Shown here one piece after another: positions 12,991 through 40,600 of a stretch of DNA of 64,000 nucleotides (its first letter is position 1; each line of letters opens with the position of its first letter). Location: assembly GCA_004369045.1 (NCBI GenBank), contig ML213512.1:1049510-1113509 (forward strand), read 5' to 3'. The notes under the pieces are model-generated. The model worked only from the letters and a program-made list of their open reading frames with translations, had not been told where the DNA came from and did not search any database. Source of the DNA: Heliocybe sulcata. Taxonomy: Eukaryota > Basidiomycota > Agaricomycetes > Gloeophyllales > Gloeophyllaceae. Made by a program: the position numbers and the translations under genes.

Positions 12991-13770
12991 CGCGGACGAA
13001 GAGCCAAGGTCCAGCAAGACGCGCTCCGACGTTTTAATAATGCACTGATCGATGAATACTCTCGTGACCAAGTGGTTCCGAGAATAGCAGAGAAGAAGAC
13101 TAGCTTCGCCGAAGGAGTAGTGCAATAGTTCTATTCTCTCGCTGCTGGAGCACGGAAGGCCGCGCCTCGGGCCATAAACGACCAGAGGAGATACTGCTCA
13201 GAGATCTTCCGTCAAGCGCATCCTAGACACCTCCCTGTACGAGCGTTAAGTGAGATATCGAGCAGAGCAAGAGTTTGAATGCAAACCTTCTATGCGTGCA
13301 ATCTCGAACGTAATGCAGCCTTCACACAGCATCACGAAAAGCCGCAATATCTCCACCGTGACTGCCGTGGTCGGAATACAAGCACGTAGCACAACGAGAA
13401 AGGTGAAAGTCTCGTCGAATTGGCTTTAAGTCAAAAATCACTCTCGGTCGCAGCTACTAGTTAGCTATTAACTGGCTCCCACTCAGTCATACTTATTGCT
13501 TATCGTATAATGGCCACTCCGACATCGAGACGGATACTCGTGTCGTCGCCGGTAGAAGCACAAACAGCGACTTTAGCAATTGAAGACGATAGTTCCAATC
13601 GATGAAATGCTGTGGAGGAACCAATATCGTGCCAGAGGTGTGGCATAGCTATTTGGTCCAGCTTGAATGTCGGAGTTTGAACCGTCGTCATATAAAGCAC
13701 CGCAGCATAGGACGCGTCGCTTCACCGACAACCACGACGATAATTATCACGCGATACTGACGAGGACGAC
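12991..13770. other. Divergent promoter region, MFS copy 2 and PARG gene
   Basis: The two flanking genes point away from each other, so this 780-base stretch holds both promoters. A TATA box for the PARG gene sits at 13691. Short open frames here have no recognisable features. Confidence 0.4.
13691..13696 (+). promoter_or_regulatory. TATA box of the PARG-like gene
   Basis: TATAAA lies 75 bases before the ATG at 13771, a usual distance for a fungal promoter with a short leader. Confidence 0.5.
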
Positions 13771-15132
13771 ATGGCGAACCGTAAAAGCAAGCGTTCGGCG
13801 CCGATCCCTCGCAGGCAGCGCTCAGTAACCCCTACGCCACCGCACAAGCAGGCTCCGGAGAAGCATCGCGATAGCCAGAAGCGGCATATGAAGAAACAGC
13901 AACAGGTCCAGATTCGAAAACGGAAGGCTTTGGCAGAGGCAATGAAGAAGAAGCGCGAAAGGTGGGCACAGATCGCTTCGGAGACGCAGAGGGTTGTACT
14001 CGGGGATGGCAAGTATGTTGAAGAGCGTGATACCTCTTCTGGTACGCCTAATGTGACAGGCCAAGGTCTTGGTTCTCATACGATCACGCCGTTTGATTTC
14101 CAGACGCTGGGCGTCGTACACGATATTTCTGGACAGATTCTACTCAGCAAACAGCAAACCGTGTTCTACCCTCACCAGTCCGAGTTCCTGGCTGGTTGGG
14201 TTACATCTCAGCCCCCTCCTTCGCACCCTCGACCGTCTACTGTCATCGAATTTACGAAATGCTCCGCGCTAGCCGCAGCCAAGCGACTCCACACAACCTT
14301 CCCTCGCCTCCACGATCACAACCCGTCCACCCTGGATAGAACGAGCATAGGTGTCCTGTCCTTTGCTTCTCCGAAGAGACCTGGGGGAGGCTATCTTAAT
14401 GGCGGAGATGAACAAGACGAAATAATAGCGAGGTCTAGCTCTCTCGTGGCAGCGCTCAGCACTCCTCAGGCAGCTGAGTTCTATCGGACCCATCGCCAGT
14501 TCAAGAACGAGGACGGCAGCGGGCTTTATGATCACGCTGTGCTCTACTCTCCGGGTGTCGTTGTTTTCAGGAGAGAAGACGAGGAACTCGAGGAGCAACC
14601 AGAGACGCCTCTTTCTGGCCGCCGGCGAAAGCGGAATCGTGCAACTGCGGCGCAGAGCATGGATAGTTGTGGTGCCTTCATCGAACCATTCTTGGTGAAC
14701 GTTGTCTCTGCCGTTCCTGTGAATGCGGCTGCTTTCCTTCAGAAGAACACGGTGGCTCCCGCTGATCAGGAACGTGTATATCAGGAGATCCGGCGGGCCA
14801 TGCGAGACCGCATGGGCCGCGTCCTGCGCTGCTTTGAAGAAAGAGGCGACAAAGCCATCGTTCTAGGCGCCTTTGGCGGCGGGTCCAACCAGTGCGACCC
14901 AGAGATGATCGCAGACGTATGGGCCGAGCTCTTTGTCACTGGCGACAGGACCCATTTTACGGAGATGCCTAAGCGGGCGTACGCCCGGTTCAAGGACGTG
15001 TTCGAGCGTGTCGTGTTTGCAGTCCCTGGCAAGTGGTTTACCGAGTTCAAGAAGTCTTTCGATATGAGGACGCTGGAGATGGAGATCGAGGAGGCGATGA
15101 TGGGGCCGCGGAACCTAAACGATGAGTCTTGA
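13771..15132 (+). CDS. Microbial-type PARG domain protein (TIGR02452 family)
   Basis: A single uninterrupted frame encodes 453 residues. The family hydrolyses ADP-ribose chains or ADP-ribosyl links and binds them with a macro-domain fold. The signature is FASPKRPGGGYLNGG at about 199-212: GGG is 205-207 and is followed by QDE at 215-217, where bacterial-type PARGs usually have QEE. Glu217 would correspond to the catalytic second Glu. A further match is VLGAFGGGSNQCDPEMIADVW near the C-terminus, typical of this family. The first about 70 residues are strongly basic (KRHMKKQQQVQIRKRK) and look like a nuclear or nucleolar signal followed by a helix. The lack of introns is unusual beside neighbours with 5-20 exons and could reflect retrocopying or horizontal origin, but this is inference. 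Confidence 0.88.
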   Translation: MANRKSKRSAPIPRRQRSVTPTPPHKQAPEKHRDSQKRHMKKQQQVQIRKRKALAEAMKKKRERWAQIASETQRVVLGDGKYVEERDTSSGTPNVTGQGLGSHTITPFDFQTLGVVHDISGQILLSKQQTVFYPHQSEFLAGWVTSQPPPSHPRPSTVIEFTKCSALAAAKRLHTTFPRLHDHNPSTLDRTSIGVLSFASPKRPGGGYLNGGDEQDEIIARSSSLVAALSTPQAAEFYRTHRQFKNEDGSGLYDHAVLYSPGVVVFRREDEELEEQPETPLSGRRRKRNRATAAQSMDSCGAFIEPFLVNVVSAVPVNAAAFLQKNTVAPADQERVYQEIRRAMRDRMGRVLRCFEERGDKAIVLGAFGGGSNQCDPEMIADVWAELFVTGDRTHFTEMPKRAYARFKDVFERVVFAVPGKWFTEFKKSFDMRTLEMEIEEAMMGPRNLNDES

Positions 15133-16902: not shown

Positions 16903-18198
16903 TTATGCCATCTCGGGAACAAGGTCCTGGCCTTTGCCTGTCGTGAAGTAGTCCCTTACGTTCGTGAGCGCACGGATCTCCATCTTTTTCTGCGAGTCGC
17001 GCGTCTCGGTGCCCATGTGCGGGAGCAGGGTGATGTTGGGGAAGTCGAGCAGTCGAGGGTTGACCTCGGGCTCGTCGGGGAACACATCCAGGCCGACAGA
17101 GGACAGCTGAGATAGGGTAATCGGACAATTGGCTCGTAGAATTAATCTGCATCACTTACATGTCCGTCCTCTAATGCCCGGATCATCGCTGCCTCGTCGA
17201 TCACCTTCCCCCTCGCCGTATTGATAATAATCGCGCCCTTCTTCAACTTCCTAATCATCCCCTCGTCCACCAGCCCCTCCGTCTCCTTCTTCAGCGGCAC
17301 GTGCACACTGAGCACATCCGCCTGCGCGAGCATCTCGTCTAGCCTCTCCGGGCCGTAATACTCGCACCACTCGGGCACGTCGGTGCGCTTGCGGCGGTTG
17401 TGGTAGAGAACGCGCATGCGGAAGGGCCTGGTGTACTCGGCCATGCGGAGGCCGATGCCGCCGAGCCCGAGGATGGCGAGGGTCTTGTCTTCGAGGTCGG
17501 CGGCGGCGCCGGCTTTGTGCGCGCGCTTCCAGGTGCCGGCGCGCAGGCTGCGCTCGGCGGCGGCGTATTTGCGGAAGGCGGAGATCATGAGGTAGAGGCC
17601 TGTCGTGGCTGTCGCGTCGTCGACGGCGCCGGGAGTGTTGGAGACGTATATCCCTGTGCATGGGGCTGTGGGATGCGGTTGGGGATCTTGGAGGGGAGGA
17701 GGACGTACCTTTGGCTTTGCACTCATGGACGTCGATCTGGTCGTAGCCTGCGCCGTTGTGCGCGATCCATTTGACGTGCCCTGCGATGCCGTTCACGATT
17801 TCCTTGTCGAATATGCCGATTCGGTCTGCTGAGATGTTGTGGCGGTACACGCCCTCTACGCCTTCGTACTTTCCGCCAGGCTTGAACCCCGCCAGGAAGT
17901 CAGCGCGGTTGGGCGAGTCCATGCGCTGTGGACGTCGATGAATGAGGTCTGGTGGGCGGTAGGGTGCGCTGTAGAGCACCTACGACGATCTCTGCGATGC
18001 CTTTGAACATTTCCTTTGCCTCCTCGTTCGCCCACACCAAGTCTCCTGCATGAGAGTCAGTGCTCTCGTAGTCACCGCGTTGATCCAGATGCGCTGACCA
18101 CAGATCATAACCCGCTTGCCCATGGTTGAATACTGTCGACTGGTCCTGACCGAAAACGAGCGAGAGATAGCGGATAGACGAGTCGCAGCCGCGTTCAT
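16903..18198 (-). CDS. D-isomer 2-hydroxyacid dehydrogenase (glyoxylate reductase-like)
   Basis: Five exons (18099-18198, 17984-18045, 17709-17925, 17160-17653, 16903-17106) join in frame into 358 residues. The enzyme reduces 2-keto acids such as glyoxylate or hydroxypyruvate with NAD(P)H. The Rossmann motif is LAILGLGGIGLRM. The catalytic triad positions are visible as the Arg of NTARGKVID, the Glu of DVFPDEPEV and the His of LLPHMGTET. WIAHNGAGYDQID and SNTPGAVDDATA are standard family segments. The basic residue after the Rossmann loop (HNRRKR) suggests a preference for NADP(H). The first 25 residues (ISRSFSVRTSRQYST) look like a mitochondrial targeting peptide, while an in-frame ATG at 18123 (MGKRVMICG) would give a cytosolic form, so dual targeting is possible. 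Confidence 0.92.
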
Positions 18199-19119: not shown

Positions 19120-19567
19120 CTAGTATCCTCCACCGCTATATCTCGTCTCATCACGACCCTGGTCATACGAGTTCTCGATACCATCGTCAAACCGCTCGAC
19201 GTCTCCCACCTTCTCTCCGGCCCAGCCAGCCGCATCGTCCACGCCGCGCCCAATATCTTGGGGGATATCCTCGACGCCCTGGATGGCACCGTCTACCGTG
19301 TTCTCGACGCCATACTTGGCCTGGTCATAGTCGTTCTCAACGTTGCACTTGGCCCGCTCATAGTCATTATCCACGTCCTGCGGGATGTTCTCGACGTCTC
19401 CGACTGCCTCGCCCGTCCAGCGGGCGGCGTTGTTCGGGAACTCTTCGACGTTGTTCACTGCCGTGAGGACACGTCAGTACATGACCCTATGGACACTGGT
19501 ATATGGCGGTCAGTCACTCACCGACTTTGTCGAAGCCCTCTTCGACGAGTTCGCCCAGGAAACCCAT
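19120..19567 (-). CDS. Small acidic IPQD-repeat protein A
   Basis: Two exons (19522-19567 and 19120-19457) join with a phase-1 intron into 127 residues starting MGFLGELVEEGFDKV. The protein is hydrophilic and acidic, with no Cys-rich, signal or membrane segment. A roughly 30-residue unit recurs: GDVENIPQDVDNDYERAK, then GVEDIPQDIGRGVDDAAGW. It ends with VERFDDGIENSYDQGRDE. The pattern suggests amphipathic helices like those of LEA-type or membrane-associating stress proteins, but I cannot assign it to a named family. It heads a minus-strand array with proteins B, C and D, all sharing the short first exon, the phase-1 intron and the C-terminal motif. A TATA-like TTATAA lies upstream near 19651. 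Exon 2 is exactly as long (338 bases) as exon 2 of protein B. Confidence 0.75.
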
Positions 19568-20113
19568 GGTTCGTGGATGCGGAGGTGGATGGTAAGTGTG
19601 AGGTCGGCGGTAGCTGAGTGGGTGCACGATTGCAAACAGCCGGTGCGGGTTATAAGGCCATGGCCATCCACTTAAAAGGCTGTCCCATACATCGGTCGGT
19701 CACCGTCTCCGGCGCCAGGAAACAAGGGTTGTTACTAGGTGCTATTATTAGATGCTTCCGATGCATCACTTCGCGAAGACGTTGGACGCTCGGATAAGTC
19801 GGATTGAATCATCACGATGGTGTCAGCTTGAATGAACACCGACCTGCGCCGACATCTCCAGGGAACATTAAACGATGCTCAGCGTCTCCACCTGCACTCA
19901 TCACGGTAGACTTGGGCTGGGAGGAACAATACTGCTATCCTTCGATCAGCCTGAATTGTCTAGACTCGTTTTCTTATCACTACACTTGCTGCTGGAGACT
20001 GCTGGTACCTGAATTCTTCGTGATCTGGTGGCCCTCATGAATGTATTCTCTGCGACTCAGGCGACAACGCTATAGATGCAACGACTGTGTCCGTACACCA
20101 ATCTCCCGCCGAC
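19568..20113. other. Intergenic between array genes A and B
   Basis: The upstream part of gene A and the 3' flank of gene B. A short open frame at 19804-20040 has no support. Nothing else is seen. Confidence 0.35.
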
Positions 20114-20940
20114 CTAGTAATACCCCCTAGACTCGTCGCGGCCCTGGTCATACGAATTATCAATCCCATTATCAAACCTCTCGACATCCCCAACTCCGTC
20201 TCCCACCCACCTCGCCGCATCGTCCACACCATCCCGGAGATCCTGGGGAATATCCTCGACATCCTGCACCGCATTGTCGAATCTGTTCTCCATGCCGTAC
20301 TTGGCCCTGTCATAGTCGTACTCGACATCTTGCGGGATATCCTCGACCTCCCCGACCTTGCGCCCCGTCCATTGCGCAGCGTTGTCCGGGAAGTTCTCGA
20401 CGTCGTTCTCGACGCGGTACTTGTCGCGGTCCCAGTCGTTCTCTGGGAACCCTCGGTCAGCCCACGTCTCTCACTCCGTCGGGAATGGTAGATGGTCGCA
20501 GACCCGGCGGAGTGCTACTCACCGACATTGTGCGCCTCGTGGTCTAACAGAGCGCCACCAGCCAGCCCCGCCGCGGCACCCATCGCACCGTACATGAGCC
20601 CGCTGTGGCCTCCACCCCCCGAGCTCCTGCTTGGCTGCTCGTAGTAGTCTCCCCCACTACCGTAACCCTGCCGTCCGCCTTCATAGTACTGCTGCGAGCT
20701 CTGCTGGCCCTGATAATACCCGCCTTGCCCACCAGGGTACTCGAATGTGCGCTCGCCCGTCGCCTCGTTGATGTATATCCACCGCCGAGCGGGCTCGTCC
20801 CACCGCGCCACCCATGGCGGGGACACTTGCGGCGCGCCGCCTGCACTGTTGTATCCGCCGCTCTGCTGGAACTGTTGTTGAGGCTGGGAGTGCTGCCCTT
20901 TGTGGGTGAATTCTTGGACGAGCTCTGAGACGAAATTCAT
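20114..20940 (-). CDS. IPQD-repeat protein B with WW-like N-terminal domain
   Basis: Two exons (20523-20940 and 20114-20451) join through a phase-1 intron into 251 residues. After MNFVSELVQEFTHK and a Gln- and Gly-rich linker there is a WW-like domain at about 41-69: PPWVARWDEPARRWIYINEA then TGERTFEYP. The second signature Trp is replaced by Phe66. A Tyr-, Gln- and Gly-rich stretch follows, then a small hydrophobic segment LMYGAMGAAAGLAGGALL near 126-143, which could dip into a membrane. The second exon encodes the IPQD repeats (VGEVEDIPQDVEYDYDRAKY and DVEDIPQDLRDGVDDAARW) and ends FDNGIDNSYDQGRDE. Prolines around WW domains bind Pro-rich partners, so this member may link the repeat module to another protein; that is inference. 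Confidence 0.75.
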
Positions 20941-21668
20941 TTTCTGGAAGAGATATGCGCTGATTGAGGATTGGAGGGTGTGGGTGTAGTGAAGAAAGAG
21001 CACGCTTGCACGTCAGCCTGATTTAAAGAGCTGCGTTACCCGAGCAGATGGCCCCGGGTGCACTTTCCGAGATCTGACGGGATAGGAAAAGACAGCTTTG
21101 CGCTGTATTGGGGCTATATTTAGGTGCAGGCGAGGTGTCTCGGGCTTTTTTGACCACTCATCATCCGATGCTCAGCGCTCACCAGTCGTAGTATTGCCTC
21201 AGAGCCACCGATGAGCTTCCTGGACCGCCTTCGCTGGACGCACTGGAATACGTCTTGTGGCTGGACCTTCACCGCAGCGGACTATTTTATTTTCATTCCC
21301 TTCCACGTATCGGTCTGCTGATAGCCTTTCTAGGAACGCCGAATCACCATAATGGAAAAGGACGATGCGCAGACGCCACTGTCTACAATGAGATGGCAAC
21401 TATACCCCACTGCTCCTGGAAGTTGACCACGGCTGTACGGATCTGCACTTTCGGAGCCTCCACTCCACTTGAGACTGCGAATGCAGCGAGGGCGCTGTTC
21501 ACACAGACTCGCTGCGAACTCGAAGCTGGAAACTTCCAGGGCTGTGGTCCATCAAGTTATCTCACCGTGCGACATGAGCCATGTCTGGCTCTCCCTTCAA
21601 CGAAGCATACTTTGATATTGGTACATTCAGATTATCACAAACACCCCCTCCCGGTGCGATCCTGTTAA
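20941..21668. other. Intergenic between array genes B and C
   Basis: Upstream region of gene B and 3' flank of gene C. The + strand frame at 21255-21668 is unsupported. No motif was recognised. Confidence 0.35.
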
Positions 21669-22013
21669 TCAGTTCCTGTATCTGCCGTCATTCCTTCCCT
21701 GGTCATATGAGCAGTCGACACCCTGGTCGAATCTCTGCGCGTCGCCCACTGCATCTCCGACGTCCGCGGCGGCGTTGTCTGCGCCTCTGTCGACGTCTTG
21801 CGGGATATCGTCGACGTCCCGCTTGGCGTCGTTGTAATCGTTGTTCAAGTCCTGCGGGATTCCCTCGACGTCGCCGACGCCCTCGCCGACGCCGCGCGCA
21901 GCGTCATCGGGCAAGTTGGAGATGTCGTTCTCTATGCGAAGATGTCACTGTCGATCTAGCCGAGGAGCTGCGCGTTGTGGTGAAGGCTTACCAAGGTTGG
22001 ATAAGAAACTCAT
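21669..22013 (-). CDS. Small acidic IPQD-repeat protein C
   Basis: Two exons (21992-22013 and 21669-21931) join through a phase-1 intron into 94 residues starting MSFLSNL. Two IPQD units are present, GDVEGIPQDLNNDYNDAKR and DDIPQDVDRGADNAAADVG, and the C-terminal motif is FDQGVDCSYDQGRNDG. It is the shortest clear member of the array and contains a single Cys inside the conserved motif. Upstream, TATATATAT at 22083-22091 serves as a probable TATA box. The 22-base first exon is also seen, damaged, in copy D, with a similar promoter, so C and D are recent duplicates. Confidence 0.72.
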
Positions 22014-22580
22014 GGTTGCGTCACTAGGTGCGTTTGGTATGCAGGGGCGTCTGCGGAAGAGGAACAAGGTGCGCAGCGATCTATATATATACAGGAGAGT
22101 CCTGAGAGATCAGCTCGTCATACTTCCCTTGTGGGCATTGTTACCGCCAGGCGATTGTGACGTGCTGAGTTCCCTCGGGTGTACCTGCTCTATACTTAGA
22201 TACTTGACGAAGCGAATGGCTCACCACGCGATTGTGTCTAAGCAGATCAATTGGACGCTTCGTCGGATTCGACTGCAACCTCTGTATATCTTTACCCTCC
22301 ATTGGACCTACGGGAAATGGGCTTCTAGCGCGACTTGCACCACAAGGGATCGTTCTCACCGTCTCATGCACTGCCCTATGATAGCCTTACCAGGCATCGC
22401 TGCTTGGATTTATCCGCAGAATTTGATCGCAGACGTGGCTGGAGGCATCTTCGCTCTGGTATCACCGAGTCTCGCGGTTGATAAATCGAAAGCTATGGTT
22501 CCAGGTTCAGAACTTCGTCTTATCGGTGTCAACGAAGGCTCTCTGTACTCGTACATTCCAATTCATACATCACTTCCCTA
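22014..22580. other. Intergenic between array genes C and D
   Basis: Upstream region of gene C and 3' flank of gene D. A long + strand open frame crosses this stretch (21841-22722), but it is the antisense shadow of the repeat genes at both ends and has no family features in the middle. Confidence 0.35.
22083..22091 (-). promoter_or_regulatory. TATA box of repeat protein C
   Basis: An alternating TA run 70-78 bases upstream of the ATG at 22013. The equivalent position in copy D (about 22956-22963) has TATTTATAC, so the promoter spacing is conserved in both copies. Confidence 0.45.
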
Positions 22581-22891
22581 TTACCCCTGGTTCTTGCCCT
22601 GGTCGTATGAATTATCAGCACCCTGGTCGAACTGCTGCGCATCGCCCTCTGCATTTCCGACGTCTCGTGCGGCGTTGTCGACGCCTCTTTCAGCGTCCTG
22701 CGGGGCATTGCTGACGTCTTGATCGGCTTTGTTGACATCGTTGCTGATGTCGCCGACACCCTGGCCGGCAGCTTGCGCAGCGTCGTCAGCGAGATTGGAC
22801 ATGTTGTTCTGTGGACGGAATGTAAGCCTACATTCCGCCTTGATGCTGCAGGTTCTACTGGAGACGTACCGAGGTTAGAGATGAAACTGAT
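22581..22891 (-). pseudogene. IPQD-repeat protein D, start codon lost
   Basis: This copy matches C in layout: a 22-base first exon (22870-22891), an intron and a second exon ending at the TAA at 22581-22583. The position of the ATG in C reads ATC here, so the first exon has no start, and the intron acceptor at 22809 would join the exons out of frame. The second exon is open from its own ATG at 22802 (MSNLADDAAQAAGQGVGDIS) through 73 residues to FDQGADNSYDQGKNQG. The IPQD motifs have drifted to NAPQDAERG. It could still make an N-terminally shortened protein from 22802, or be an early pseudogene. I favour the pseudogene. Confidence 0.6.
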
Positions 22892-23305
22892 GGTGGCGTC
22901 GCTAGTGTACTTGGGTATGAGGGGTTGTTTGCTGATGACCAGGATGCAGGCTCTCTATTTATACAGGTGATTCCTCTGCGACCATCTCGTCATAGTTTCC
23001 TTGCAGGCATGGCCAGGAAACTATGACGTGTTGAATTTCCAGGTATCCGTGTTCTATACTTAGATACTCTGATGGGGCGAACGGTATGCGTCTGCGCATG
23101 GTGCTGATACGTATGCCTTGAATTGATACCCGGTGGAAATGCAGGTCTTCCTGACGGTAGAAGCTGTCAGTAAATGTACCCAGAATATCGACATCTGTTG
23201 GGTCGCTCGTTAGCTCCGCAACATATCTATTGAGAGGGCGCGTAGTGCGTTTGTCGCGTTGTCCTGGTGACGGATGACGAGGTTCTCTTTCCAGTGTCAC
23301 ACGTA
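22892..23305. other. Promoter side of copy D and left flank of the TIR element
   Basis: Contains the TATA-like TATTTATAC near 22956 and otherwise nothing recognised. The left TA target-site copy of the inverted-repeat element is at 23304-23305. Confidence 0.35.
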
Positions 23306-24148: not shown

Positions 24149-25016
24149 CAGCGTCGTAGCCTGGGTCCGCTGGTGGTGCTCTAGCAGACCACGACTCGCA
24201 TGAAGCCCATAAGTGTTACGGAAATTGCTCCACGGAGTGGGTCGACCAAGGATTTCTCAGATCTCAGACCCCGTTGGTTCCAGAATTCAACGAGAATAAT
24301 GACGCTCTAGTAGACCACGGGACGCACGAAGTCAGCAAGTGGATTACAAATGTCGCTCCACAATGCTATTGAGCATACTTTGGTCGACCGAGGACTTCCG
24401 AGAGCATGTCTGAAATCGCGAGAAGTGAACGATGTCGAGGGTTTCCCGGGTTGTGGATCAGTCGCAGTTCCCCATGAGAGCCATGATGAGCCATCGGGCA
24501 CTTTGTAGAGTATGGCGGAGCCAATCACCGACAGACTGAATGAGCTATCCAGCACACGGGAGACGTTCCTTAGGATTCACGCAATGGCCTCGATCATGCG
24601 ACCAGTTAGGTAGGGAGTGAAGTTAGTGACACTGAATTTGGCAGCAGTACATAGAGACCTTGTAGTCAGGTACACCACAGGCCTGCTAGACGTAGGAATG
24701 GCTGGGAGGCACATTAGTCTATGGGTAGCTTTGCTGTTGGGTCCCAGAGATGATGCGCCAACCAGAGGGTCACCTCTTCCAGGTCAGGTGTGAATGTGTC
24801 GCCATAATAACGGTGTCTGAGATCTGAAGCACAGAGCATCCACAATTGTGGACATATTTGAAGCGATACACGAGGAAGTTGCCGGAGCCACAGTGCAAGT
24901 CACGGCGTGACGATAACCACGTGCTACTCTCACACGGGGCGGGAAATCCAAGACAGTCCTCTCGATCAGCCTTACTCCTCTACTTGCCTGCAACGTTGCT
25001 AGTAATCCGGTTTGCT
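24149..25016. other. Intergenic with an imperfect tandem duplication
   Basis: Two related blocks of about 100 bases, starting near 24178 and 24303, share CTCTAG(C/T)AGACCACG, then GTCGACC and a GATTTCTCAGA/GACTTCCGAGA stretch. They may be remains of a duplicated gene segment on the minus strand. No intact gene is seen; the rest is the promoter side of the G-patch gene. Confidence 0.4.
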
Positions 25017-26356
25017 ATGGGTCTCTCTGGAAGAAAAGAAAAGCAGAGGATTCCTCACGACCCAAGGAACCTCTCATGGGCGGACAGTAAGTTTTCGCAG
25101 CGCTTCAGACGAATACGATCTCAGTAGCTGTTCAGACGCAGCCAAGTTCGGTCAATCGTATCTTCAAAAATTTGGCTGGGACACTTCCAAAGGTCTTGGT
25201 GCAAACTCGGATGGCCGGACGTCGCATATCAAGGTCACCCAGAAACTGGACATGATGGGCATTGGTGCCCAGCACCAGAAGGATCCGAACGGTATTGCAT
25301 GGAAGCAGCAGAACGAATTTGAGCGGCTGCTGCGGAGACTCAATGCTGGGAATGGCCAGGAGGAGAATTCTGATGCTGAGGAAGGTACGGATACGAAGGT
25401 GAAAGGGTTTATGAAAGCGGGTAAGTCGAAGGAGGACGAGAAAGCGGGAGAGAAGCGGAAGGAGCGGGAGGAGGAGGGAGAGGAGGGGAGACGGAAGAAG
25501 AAGAAGAAAAGACGGGCTGTTGAGGAGGATGCTGAGAAAGTGGAGATGGCTGTAGATTCTGAGGCTGGCGCCAGCGACGATGAGAGGAGTGAAAAGAAGG
25601 AAAAGAAGAAGCGGGATAAACGCGAGAAGTCTAGTAAGAAACGCAAGGAGAAGAAGATGGAATTGGCAGAGTCTGACGAAGAGACGGTCGAGGTCGAGAC
25701 GAAGGTCGAGGCAAAATCTCTCTCAGAGTCAACTTCTGCCCTTGCCGCAATTACTGTAACTGAGAAAAGGATTGTCTCCGTTCGACCCATGGCGTGCGTC
25801 TCCATCTCACTACCGCGTTATACTCGTCTAAACATACGTTGGCAGGCATCGAGCGCGTCTCATCCGCTCCAAGCGCATGGCCTACCAAGACTCCGCCGCC
25901 GTCTCCGAAATTCTCGGTCTCTCTCGCTCAGCCAGCCAGACTCCTGCCATGTCTACGCCGGCCGAAAATATCCTCACTTCCCCTGGCGTCGATACCCTCC
26001 ACCCACTCACGACCTCATCGAAAAGCGTCATGGACTATTTCAAGGAGAAGTTGCTTGCGAAATCGTCCTCCGGGACGGCGACGCCGACTGAGTCTGGCTC
26101 TGAGACGCCCGCTGCTCCTGGTCTCGGGATGTCGAGGTGGCGAGGTGGTGATGAAGGTGAGGAGGCGCCGCGGATGGGATTGGGTGCTAGGTCGATTATG
26201 TCTACGTTCATGACGCCGTCCTCCGCTGAGAGGGAGTCAGCACCACTGGAAGACTCGCTGGATAAGCCTGTGGGGGATGACGAGGAGAAGTCGGCGAAGC
26301 GAAAGAAGGAGAAGAAAGAGAAAAAGGCGAGGAAGGAGAAGAAGAAGGAATCATAG
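25017..26356 (+). CDS. PINX1/Pxr1-like G-patch protein
   Basis: Three exons (25017-25086, 25142-25793, 25846-26356) join in frame into 410 residues. The start MGLSGRKEKQRIPHDPRNL matches the conserved opening of yeast Pxr1 and human PINX1. The G-patch at about 24-65 reads KFGQSYLQKFGWDTSKGLGA then SHIKVTQKLDMMGIGA. These proteins activate the helicase Prp43/DHX15 in ribosomal RNA processing in the nucleolus and can inhibit telomerase. The rest is dominated by Lys/Glu-rich blocks (KKEKKKRDKREKSSKKRKEKK), typical nucleolar tails, and a short conserved helix HRARLIRSKRMAYQDSAAVS. It ends in a Lys-rich tail KKEKKARKEKKKES. The identification is firm from the N-terminus; the telomerase role is knowledge of the family only. 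Confidence 0.9.
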
Positions 26357-37672: not shown

Positions 37673-40600
37673 ATGCGGTGGCTAGCATCTGCATCAGCGC
37701 TCAGTGGAGCTCTACTCGCCACCCAGATTCAACGCGCTCTGTCGTACGTGGTGCCTCCCGGCTCGCCAGGTTTCTACCACGGCAACTCTTCGGAGGCCGT
37801 GACATTCGATGAGTACTCTCTGTTTCTCAATGACAAGAGACTCTTCGTGTTCAGCGGGGAAGTCCACCCATGGCGCCTACCGACTGGCAAGCCCGGGTGG
37901 AAGGATATATTCCAGAAGATGAAGGTGAAACGCACCCACTTTGCTCTGTTCCTCTCGTTCTGAACTGTTTGTAGGCGGCTGGATACAATGCTGTCTCAGT
38001 GTATCTTCATTGGGCCCTCTCGGAGGGGAAGCGCGGGGAGCTCGACTTCAACTACTATCGATCGCATACGGACGTATATGAAGTCGCCAAAGAGGTTGGC
38101 CTACTGGTCATCGTTAGGCCCGGGGTATGTACGTCTTGCTTGTTACTCCGAATAGCCGACTGATTCCTATTTTTTCCAGCCCTACATAAACGTAAGTCCA
38201 AGATAATCAGTTATTCCATGTTTGCACAAACGAGTGAATCATCATGTTTTTGCTCCAGGCCGAGACTTGTGAGCGTTCTACTTCTGTACGTACTCAATGA
38301 ATACTGATGTCTTGCAGATGGTGGAGGTTTCCCTGGCTGGCTTACGAACGTTCCCGCATTGGCGAGAACCAACGAGACGGGATACACAGAGGCCTGGACT
38401 CCGTTCATCGATGCTGTGTCGCAATTCGTCGAACCATATCAGGTGCGCGAGCGTATTCTTCATGAACAATATCCACTGGTACTAACATGATAGGAAACAG
38501 TACCCAGACGGGCCTGTCATCGCTATCCAATCGGAGAACGAGTTCTTCGAATCGACACCCACCAACCCTGGACGCTCAGAGTACATGCAGCTCATCGAGG
38601 ATACATACAGAGCTAACGGGCTCACGAAGATTCCCATGTACGTTCTCGTCGCTGGTATTTCTCCGTGTAGTCAGCTAATAGCGTACATAGTACGCACAAC
38701 GAAGCGGGGCGGACGGGCGGTGTATACGCGCCCGGCAGTGGACTCGGCGAGGTGGATTTGTACACGTGGGACAACTATCCGAACGGGTTCGACTGTAGCA
38801 ACCCGACCAGATGGAACGAGCTCGATACGCAGCTCGATGCGGACCATCAGGTGCGTTCGCCCGTCAGTAGTGATAACCATTTGCTGATTGCGCGAGCCAC
38901 GTAGATGATTGACCCCGATTTACTCTGGGCGTCTGGGGAATTTGGTGGTGGCTCGTTCGATCCCTGGGGAGGCGTGAGTAGCCATGCCCCTTGAATGTGG
39001 CCTGCTGACGAGATAGTTTGTTTAGAGCGGGTATGATCAGTGCTATATACTTACAAATGAGCAGTACGCCAATGTGAGTGATCCCATCTTTCGAAGCGGA
39101 AAGTCGTAGTCTAACAGGGACGTCAAGGTTTTCTACAAGGTGAATCTTTAGTGGATGCAATAGACGTCTGCCGTTTCTAAAATAGGGCTCACATGCAGAA
39201 TAACTATGCCGCCGAGACGCACTACCAAAGCCTATACATGACGTTTGGCGGTACGAACTGGGGCAACCTCGCCGAGCCGACTGTTTATACTTCGTGAGTC
39301 TCTTAAGCTTATTTTCTACGACTTTTGCTCACCTTCTCATGTAGCTACGACTATGCCGCGCCTATCAGAGAGGACCGCACGCTTTCCACCAAGTATTACG
39401 AGATCAAGCTCCAAGCCGGCTTCCTGCACGCGTCCCCGGACTTTCTGCTCGCAACTCGCGTCGGAAACGGCACCGTCGGCAGTGGTACAGCGTACTCGGA
39501 CAACGCAAAGGTCTATACCACTGCGCTGAAGTCGGAGAGCGGCGTCAGCTTCTATGTCATCAGGCAGAATAGCACCAGGTGACCCTACTATATCCGTTGT
39601 CCTGCGGCCTCGCTTAAGCCTTGTCTTGTAGCTACCTGGATCCAGTCAGCTTCTCTTTGCGCATCAACACCACTGAAGGAGAGGTTACGGTCCCGCAATA
39701 TGGAGGCAACATCACGCTGGATGGTAGGGAGAGTCAGATCTTGGTATCCGAATACCCCTTCGGGAAACATACTCTGAAGTATTCGACGGCTGAGGTTAGT
39801 GACAGGTCAATCGATAGCTGAAGTATAGACGCTAACGCTTCCCGCAGGTATTCACTCAGACAACAATTGACGGAGTGGACTACGTCGTGTTGTACGCACA
39901 GGCCGGGCATTCCATCGAAGCCGTGATCCCCAGCTCCTCGTCACCGCAAGTTATCGGCTCTCCCTCAGTCAAGGCTACGTCTGTGAACGACTCCGTCGTC
40001 ATCACTGGCACCCCGTCGGGTCTGTCTGGAGTCGTCCTCGATGGGGCCGCTGTGATTATCGCCGACAAGCACACGGCGCTGTCCTTCTGGAATATTCGCC
40101 TGCCGAGCACGAACAATACCGTATACGACGTTGCTCCCGATGCGCCCAGCGTACTCGTGTCGGGGCCTTATTTGGTGCGCAATGCCACGATCAGTGGGTC
40201 TGCTCTCGAGCTGTACGGAGACATCAACGCTACGACTGTGTTGGGTGTTATCGCGCCTGCGTCAGTGAAGAGCGTTTTGTGGAACGGGAAAGCCGTGGAC
40301 GCGCAGAACCCTGCTCCTGGCGTGTTCAACGGCACGCTGGAATTTGGGATTCAGATCAGCCTGCCCAGTTTGAAGGAGGCGGAGTGGTACTGTGCGGATT
40401 CGCTGCCTGAGATTGGTTCTTCGTTTGACGACAGCGAGTGGGTTACGGCGAACAAGACGAGCACCGAGCGACCTTACCAGCCCTTCGGTGGCAAGGTGCG
40501 TGTTCCTCTGTGGATGAGCCACTGTCAGCAGCTCTGATTGAGGTCTACTCCGTAGTACATTCTGTACGCGGATGAATATGGATACCATCAAGGTGAAGTC

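Follow-up and report, generated by a model that had tools for sequence, protein, structure and literature searches.

Positions 19120-22891 of the window, by which we mean the whole 64,000-nucleotide (nt) stretch of Heliocybe sulcata DNA analysed here, hold an array of four related genes on the minus strand: gene D (19120-19567), gene C (20114-20940), gene B (21669-22013) and copy A (22581-22891). A first, sequence-only reading had placed the four genes in this interval, and reading the minus strand returned exactly the same coordinates. All four encode a tail along which hydrophobic residues recur with a period of 100.0-101 degrees per residue; the prolines of D, C and B fall in phase with this stripe, and the blocks carrying them are spaced in steps of 11 residues. 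Such evidence induces us to propose, tentatively, that the array encodes an amphipathic-helix protein that folds on a lipid or drying surface, in a soluble form (D, B and A) and an anchored one (C). We infer that the tails would be disordered in water and that contact with a lipid surface (a membrane or a lipid droplet), or drying, would turn them into a long, amphipathic alpha helix whose hydrophobic stripe runs straight and which the in-phase prolines would kink in one direction. D, B and A would be the soluble copies and C the anchored one: the glycine zipper of C would insert in or oligomerise at a membrane, and a proline-rich partner would be recruited by its WW domain. Disorder in water and a helix on a surface or upon drying make the simplest reading of a strong stripe combined with a low mean hydrophobicity.

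The stripe, prolines and 11-residue steps of the tails

In all four tails, the hydrophobic moment peaked at 100.0-101 degrees per residue, and for each tail none of 500 shuffles of preserved composition was as high as the observed moment (observed moments were scanned on a 0.5-degree grid and shuffles on a 1-degree grid). The amphipathic spacing suggested by the sequence-only reading is thus borne out. The moment of D was 0.374 at 100 degrees, against 0.240 at the hendecad angle of 98.18 degrees and 0.059 at the heptad angle of 102.86 degrees, and that of C dropped from 0.403 at its peak to 0.177 and 0.176, respectively. The fall was milder in B (best angle 101 degrees, 0.413 against 0.242 and 0.309) and in A (best angle 101 degrees, 0.430 against 0.282 and 0.339). 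Lags 4, 18, 29 and 36 were found within the eight strongest autocorrelations of every tail, and these eight also included lags 11 and 40 in D, C and A, lag 25 in C, B and A, and lag 7 in D and A. Only in D was lag 11 the strongest; in B and A it was lag 18, and in C lag 4. The local phase wanders by tens of degrees along the tail, passes the IPQD blocks without jumping sharply and turns in the last ~25 residues.

The prolines of D, C and B stand at +42, +48 and +53 degrees from the stripe centre, respectively, with a resultant of 0.95-1.00; the corresponding random-placement p-values are 0.044, 0.009 and 0.0005, for paralogs that are not independent of one another. Successive blocks are separated by 18 and then by 40 residues in D, by 18 and 29 in C, and by 18 twice in B, that is, by 18 residues plus whole 11-residue units. 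These spacing steps agree with the 33-nt tandem copies of gene D, where three 11-residue units at 33-nt spacing (19267-19371, minus strand) match the reference copy at 62%, 100% and 77%. Since a step of 11 residues shifts the phase of an ideal helix by just 20 degrees, length changes of this size keep the stripe roughly aligned. For a background, we took 114 other open reading frame peptides of at least 150 amino acids (aa), translated in six frames from the window and the fetched loci, with the ten cluster loci and the IPQD peptides dropped. Background windows reached the stripe of the respective tail in 0/1240 cases for D, 0/1268 for C, 7/1525 for B and 0/1675 for A. All four tails also fall on the side of the charge-hydropathy plot where disorder is predicted, which favours the proposed reading, as does the low ratio of nonsynonymous to synonymous differences in the D-C pair (0.23, see below).

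Several observations weigh against a surface-folding helix. The background maxima of 0.381, 0.389 and 0.485 come near the observed values of D (0.383), C (0.390) and A (0.492), and the maximum for windows of B's length, 0.435, exceeds B's 0.398. An AlphaFold model built from the four tail sequences does contain helices, but at low confidence (mean predicted local distance difference test score, pLDDT, of 43.8), so that the inferred helix formation is unconfirmed by the model. Each tail holds 9 to 15 helix-weakening glycines, and a net charge of -11 to -19 disfavours anionic membranes. Lys and Arg show no significant bias to any helix side, nor do Asp and Glu in A. Because the tails are acidic and lack a significant Lys/Arg bias, their targets would be neutral lipid, lipid droplets or protein clients rather than anionic membranes.

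Gene models, kinship and the fate of copy A

Gene models and splice sites were read from the sequence letters, and the splicing described here is predicted. Gene D consists of exon 1 (19522-19567, 46 nt), a phase-1 intron (19458-19521, 64 nt) and exon 2 (19120-19457), and would encode an acidic protein of 127 aa; its similarity to C, B and A adds to the model. Gene C, for which Pfam, BLAST and AlphaFold results are also at hand, has exon 1 at 20523-20940 (418 nt), a phase-1 intron at 20443-20522 (80 nt) and exon 2 at 20114-20442, giving 248 aa with a putative WW domain, a glycine zipper and the IPQD tail. Gene B, likewise seen by BLAST, comprises exon 1 (21992-22013, 22 nt), a phase-1 intron (21932-21991, 60 nt) and exon 2 (21669-21931), for 94 aa. 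The phase-1 intron thus lies directly ahead of the common tail in 3/3 intact genes, as the sequence-only reading had it; the short first exon that it gave to the whole family is found in D and B and not in C. IPQD occurs twice apiece in D, C and B, behind one looser block (FPNN, FPDN and LPDD), and these three proteins carry the C-terminal FDxGxxxSYDQGR. Copy A has a single APQD and reads SYDQGK instead of the SYDQGR of the other three. The four proteins are hydrophilic and acidic, as had been claimed, with a grand average of hydropathy of -0.88 to -1.12 and an isoelectric point of 4.05 for D, B and A and 4.35 for C.

When D was used as a BLAST query against the whole genome (31.6 Mb, 51 contigs), it recovered exon 2 of C, of B and of A with E-values of 6.5e-34, 4.6e-11 and 7.3e-8, respectively. 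A domain search of this genome gave 28 matches to DUF6533, a family typical of Basidiomycota and chiefly of Agaricomycetes. Beyond the array copies, the only match to E 1 in this search, whose match counts are lower bounds, was locus L009 (G000:C15:626084-626293) at E 0.31, a repetitive frame of EALVEAAV(H/Q)G(V/I) units with a weak likeness to D; by eye it looks unrelated, or is the wrong strand of another repeat, and we rejected it as a relative. The ratio of nonsynonymous to synonymous differences per site (pN/pS; Nei-Gojobori counts with bootstrap intervals) was below 1, upper bootstrap limit included, in 6/6 pairs. Judging from these E-values and ratios, the array copies are more alike than chance would make them. 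The D-C pair, at 0.23 (0.15-0.33) with synonymous sites near saturation, clearly points to purifying selection; the B-A pair, at 0.45 (0.29-0.67), makes a weaker case, its differences at codon positions 1, 2 and 3 numbering 15, 16 and 27. Across the four tails, 26 alignment columns are invariant, and the C-terminal motif, which lies outside the 11-residue repeats, ranks with the best conserved parts.

Synonymous divergence is 0.72 between B and A and runs from 1.3 to past saturation in the other five pairs. The region upstream of A (22952-23068, minus strand) matches that upstream of B (22080-22204), TATA box included, with a score of 105 against a shuffle maximum of 24. Two further matches were marginal (C-D upstream, 26 against 24; A-B downstream, 25 against 23), and none of the remaining upstream and downstream pairs or of the six intron pairs rose above its own shuffle maximum. 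From such comparisons, we take A and B to be the younger pair.

The sequence-only reading had called A a decaying copy. Its old start is indeed lost: the former first exon (22870-22891) begins with ATC, and joining the old splice sites across the intron-like stretch (22809-22869, 61 nt) leads to a stop after 14 residues. From another ATG at 22802, however, an open frame of 73 codons that includes the tail runs down to 22581, as seen in the sequence and by BLAST. There is no ATG in the 91 nt of the A leader examined (22870-22960), and the sole ATG inside the intron is directly followed by TAG; provided that the intron is still spliced out, the message would therefore have its first ATG at 22802. 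Possibly, then, A was re-started rather than being in decay. In simulated neutral drift from the B frame, an open frame with a stripe as strong as that of A survived 15 mutations in 32% of the runs, 29 mutations in 12%, 45 in 5% and 66 in 2%. This result is suggestive only: it leans against a long neutral decay of A and is still compatible with a recent one, and at 29 mutations an unconstrained frame would be expected to show the amino-acid identity that A has to B (probability 1.000). The intact frame and the kept stripe weaken the claim of decay, although they are still compatible with neutral drift; the label itself is an interpretation, as is the label of fusion given to gene C.

The first exon of gene C

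The putative WW domain of C covers residues 41-69 (20734-20820, minus strand). Its scores, 22.5 bits against a Pfam cut-off of 26.9 and 25.4 bits in the genome profile search, are sub-threshold. A single-sequence AlphaFold model gave residues 41-70 two strands and a short bridge, in blocks with pLDDT values of 91, 92 and 86; the remainder of the exon-1 model was poor, with an overall mean of 58.4. When this model was compared with PDB folds, the best 50 of 185 matches were mainly WW domains (those of Pin1, Itch and Nedd4L, for example), although 0/185 reached E 0.001, the best E being 0.092. On the strength of the model, C has a WW fold. It shares this WW-like predicted fold with the proteins of PF00397 and differs from them in having Phe at residue 66, which we take to be the position of the second signature Trp. 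Behind the WW domain come a Q/G/Y-rich stretch and then a glycine zipper of 19 residues, read from the sequence, that contains GxxxGxxxG (residues 114-132; 20545-20601, minus strand).

Searched against the genome to E 10, exon 1 of C found only itself. The WW profile gave 21 matches in the genome, one of them C; the layout comparison covered the open frames of 11 of the 20 others, and 0/11 of these translated frames (two of which lie in one gene) resembled C beyond the WW stretch. A sub-threshold match to DUF2076 (PF09849; residues 6-144, 23.9 bits against a cut-off of 38, E 5.1e-5), a bacterial family according to its Pfam description, spans the Q/G-rich stretch and the glycine zipper and hardly covers the tail; it may reflect composition. 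Since the N-terminal pattern MxF(L/V)xELV(E/Q)E is common to C and D, the WW and zipper block could either have been gained by C or lost by D, B and A. Proteins combining a WW domain with a glycine zipper occur in other fungi, which would favour a loss in D, B and A. The open-access literature searched contained no report joining WW domain, glycine zipper and fungi.

Relation to known families and rival explanations

The sequence-only reading knew of no named family with the signature of these tails, and the searches are in line with this. Neither Pfam nor NCBIfam gave a tail match above cut-off, the matches of D, B and A (LPP, Chlorosome_CsmC, PHA granule protein and the like) lying far under it. 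The LEA_4 profile of late embryogenesis abundant (LEA) proteins and the perilipin and apolipoprotein families were absent among the Pfam matches of all four proteins at E up to 10, where HMMER filters drop most matches above ~0.1. In the genome, the best LEA_4 match reached 16.2 bits against a cut-off of 51.1, which is no proof of absence since 14 control genomes went without a match too; in the same way, a perilipin search matched none of the 14 control genomes, so that absence is not shown. A search for class II peroxidases, meant to indicate lifestyle, likewise gave no match in the genome or in its controls and carries no weight here. One genomic locus (L032, G000:C15:185323-185655), with one TGA and one TAG inside, had a sub-threshold perilipin score of 25.7 bits (cut-off 33, E 7.1e-5) and possibly represents exons and introns of a perilipin gene. 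A PDB profile search with the tails returned 8 sequences to E 10, none significant (best E 0.18); SHERP (PDB 2x43), at E 0.6, was dropped for lack of significance. Searches for relatives covered viral, prokaryote and plasmid collections and are silent on the spread among fungi. With the four-sequence alignment, 104 pattern-matching stretches in viral contigs and 593 in prokaryote genome contigs yielded 0 confirmed relatives, as did 31 stretches in viral contigs with protein C as the query, and plasmids gave no match to protein D to E 1. Among three family motif strings, the open-access literature contained only IPQDV, in a Mycobacterium proteomics paper.

The LEA-like character proposed by the sequence-only reading holds for the physics of the tails and fails for membership. 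Like group 3 LEA proteins (LEA_4, PF02987), the tails have 11-residue units and an amphipathic pattern, are hydrophilic and are predicted to be disordered. According to passages of PMC6559209, 11-mer domains of group 3 LEA proteins are without order in buffer and become helical when glycerol or trifluoroethanol is present; passages of PMC8670023 state that group 3 LEA proteins are thought to form amphipathic helices, and its authors suggest that structure and charge pattern outweigh sequence identity. It is therefore possible, if on the unlikely side, that the four proteins act solely as LEA-like molecular shields, being soluble in the cell, preventing other proteins from clumping under drying or heat stress and having no lipid target; the array would then hold a fungal stress factor missed by LEA_4 profile searches. 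The tails differ from group 3 LEA proteins in being built of units such as VENDYDQAKYG and IPQD blocks instead of the LEA motif TAQAAKEKAGE that appears in passages of PMC6559209, and their steps of 18 and 11 give ~100 degrees per residue and not 98.2. Against such shields, 0/4 proteins match LEA_4, the tails contain Trp, Phe or Cys in places, and the WW domain and glycine zipper of C would be unexpected in a free shield. Promoters add little: in 546-600 nt upstream, with expectations of 0.2-1.0, stress response elements numbered 0 in D and C and 1 in B and A, which is no clear excess, and heat shock element-like sites (1 in D, 2 in C, 0 in B and A) were not informative. A helical-bundle or coiled-coil module, in which the stripes of several tails would pack and the soluble copies would regulate or extend a C-based oligomer, appears doubtful to us. 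The stripe period does lie between the hendecad and the heptad, as in a straight bundle, the tail is common to long and short copies, and five of the eight non-significant PDB profile matches are helical proteins; prolines at the stripe flank, many glycines, charge-hydropathy disorder and the lack of a confident model speak against packing. Finally, we consider it quite improbable that these are low-constraint repeat proteins, expanded and shrunk by slippage, with the stripe as a by-product of the 11-residue unit. The 33-nt copies in D, the block spacing in steps of 11 and the B-A pair, with its higher pN/pS and 27/58 differences at third positions, would suit such an origin, and the D-C ratio at near-saturated synonymous sites, the 26 invariant columns and the conservation of a C-terminal motif that is not part of the repeats weigh against it.

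Returning to the preferred reading of soluble and anchored surface-folding helices, we note the likeness to exchangeable apolipoproteins and perilipins, which are built of 11/22-residue, partly proline-punctuated helices; in apolipoproteins, in-phase prolines bend the helices one way. The tails share with them a long predicted amphipathic helix, 11-residue steps and prolines on one side, and differ in being strongly acidic and in having no Pfam match. Hence, the tails may act in the manner of apolipoproteins or group 3 LEA proteins, although membership by profile failed. It is tempting to go further and to suppose an undescribed fungal family in which a single WW/glycine-zipper protein, anchored in a membrane, and several soluble paralogs have in common a proline-punctuated, straight-striped helix whose length changes by whole units of 11 residues; one tandem array would then have given rise, in fungi, to the soluble and anchored forms of an apolipoprotein-like surface coat. 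We regard this broader scenario as unlikely. Overall, the array is a real and constrained small family of a rather ordinary type, probably undescribed as far as motif and term searches of an open-access library can tell, whose points of interest are the 11-residue length rule and the split into short and anchored forms. If the preferred reading is true, the block spacing of 18 + 11n and FDxGxxxSYDQGR would offer a handle on a family outside the curated libraries searched, the 18, 29 and 40 residues between proline blocks would form a natural series for relating helix length and proline phase to surface binding, and the array would be a case of tandem copies differing by an anchor.

We would also like to comment on the surroundings of the array. 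On the minus strand, an open frame at 17145-17792, separated from the array's 3' end by ~1.3 kb, matches the NAD-binding domain of D-isomer 2-hydroxyacid dehydrogenases (PF02826, E 9.8e-43). On the plus strand, the window holds a frame with a microbial-type PARG catalytic domain at 13744-15129 (PF10021, E 3.3e-26), a G-patch frame at 25006-26088 (PF01585) and a frame with beta-galactosidase domains 2/3 at 39836-40534 (PF10435, PF13363).

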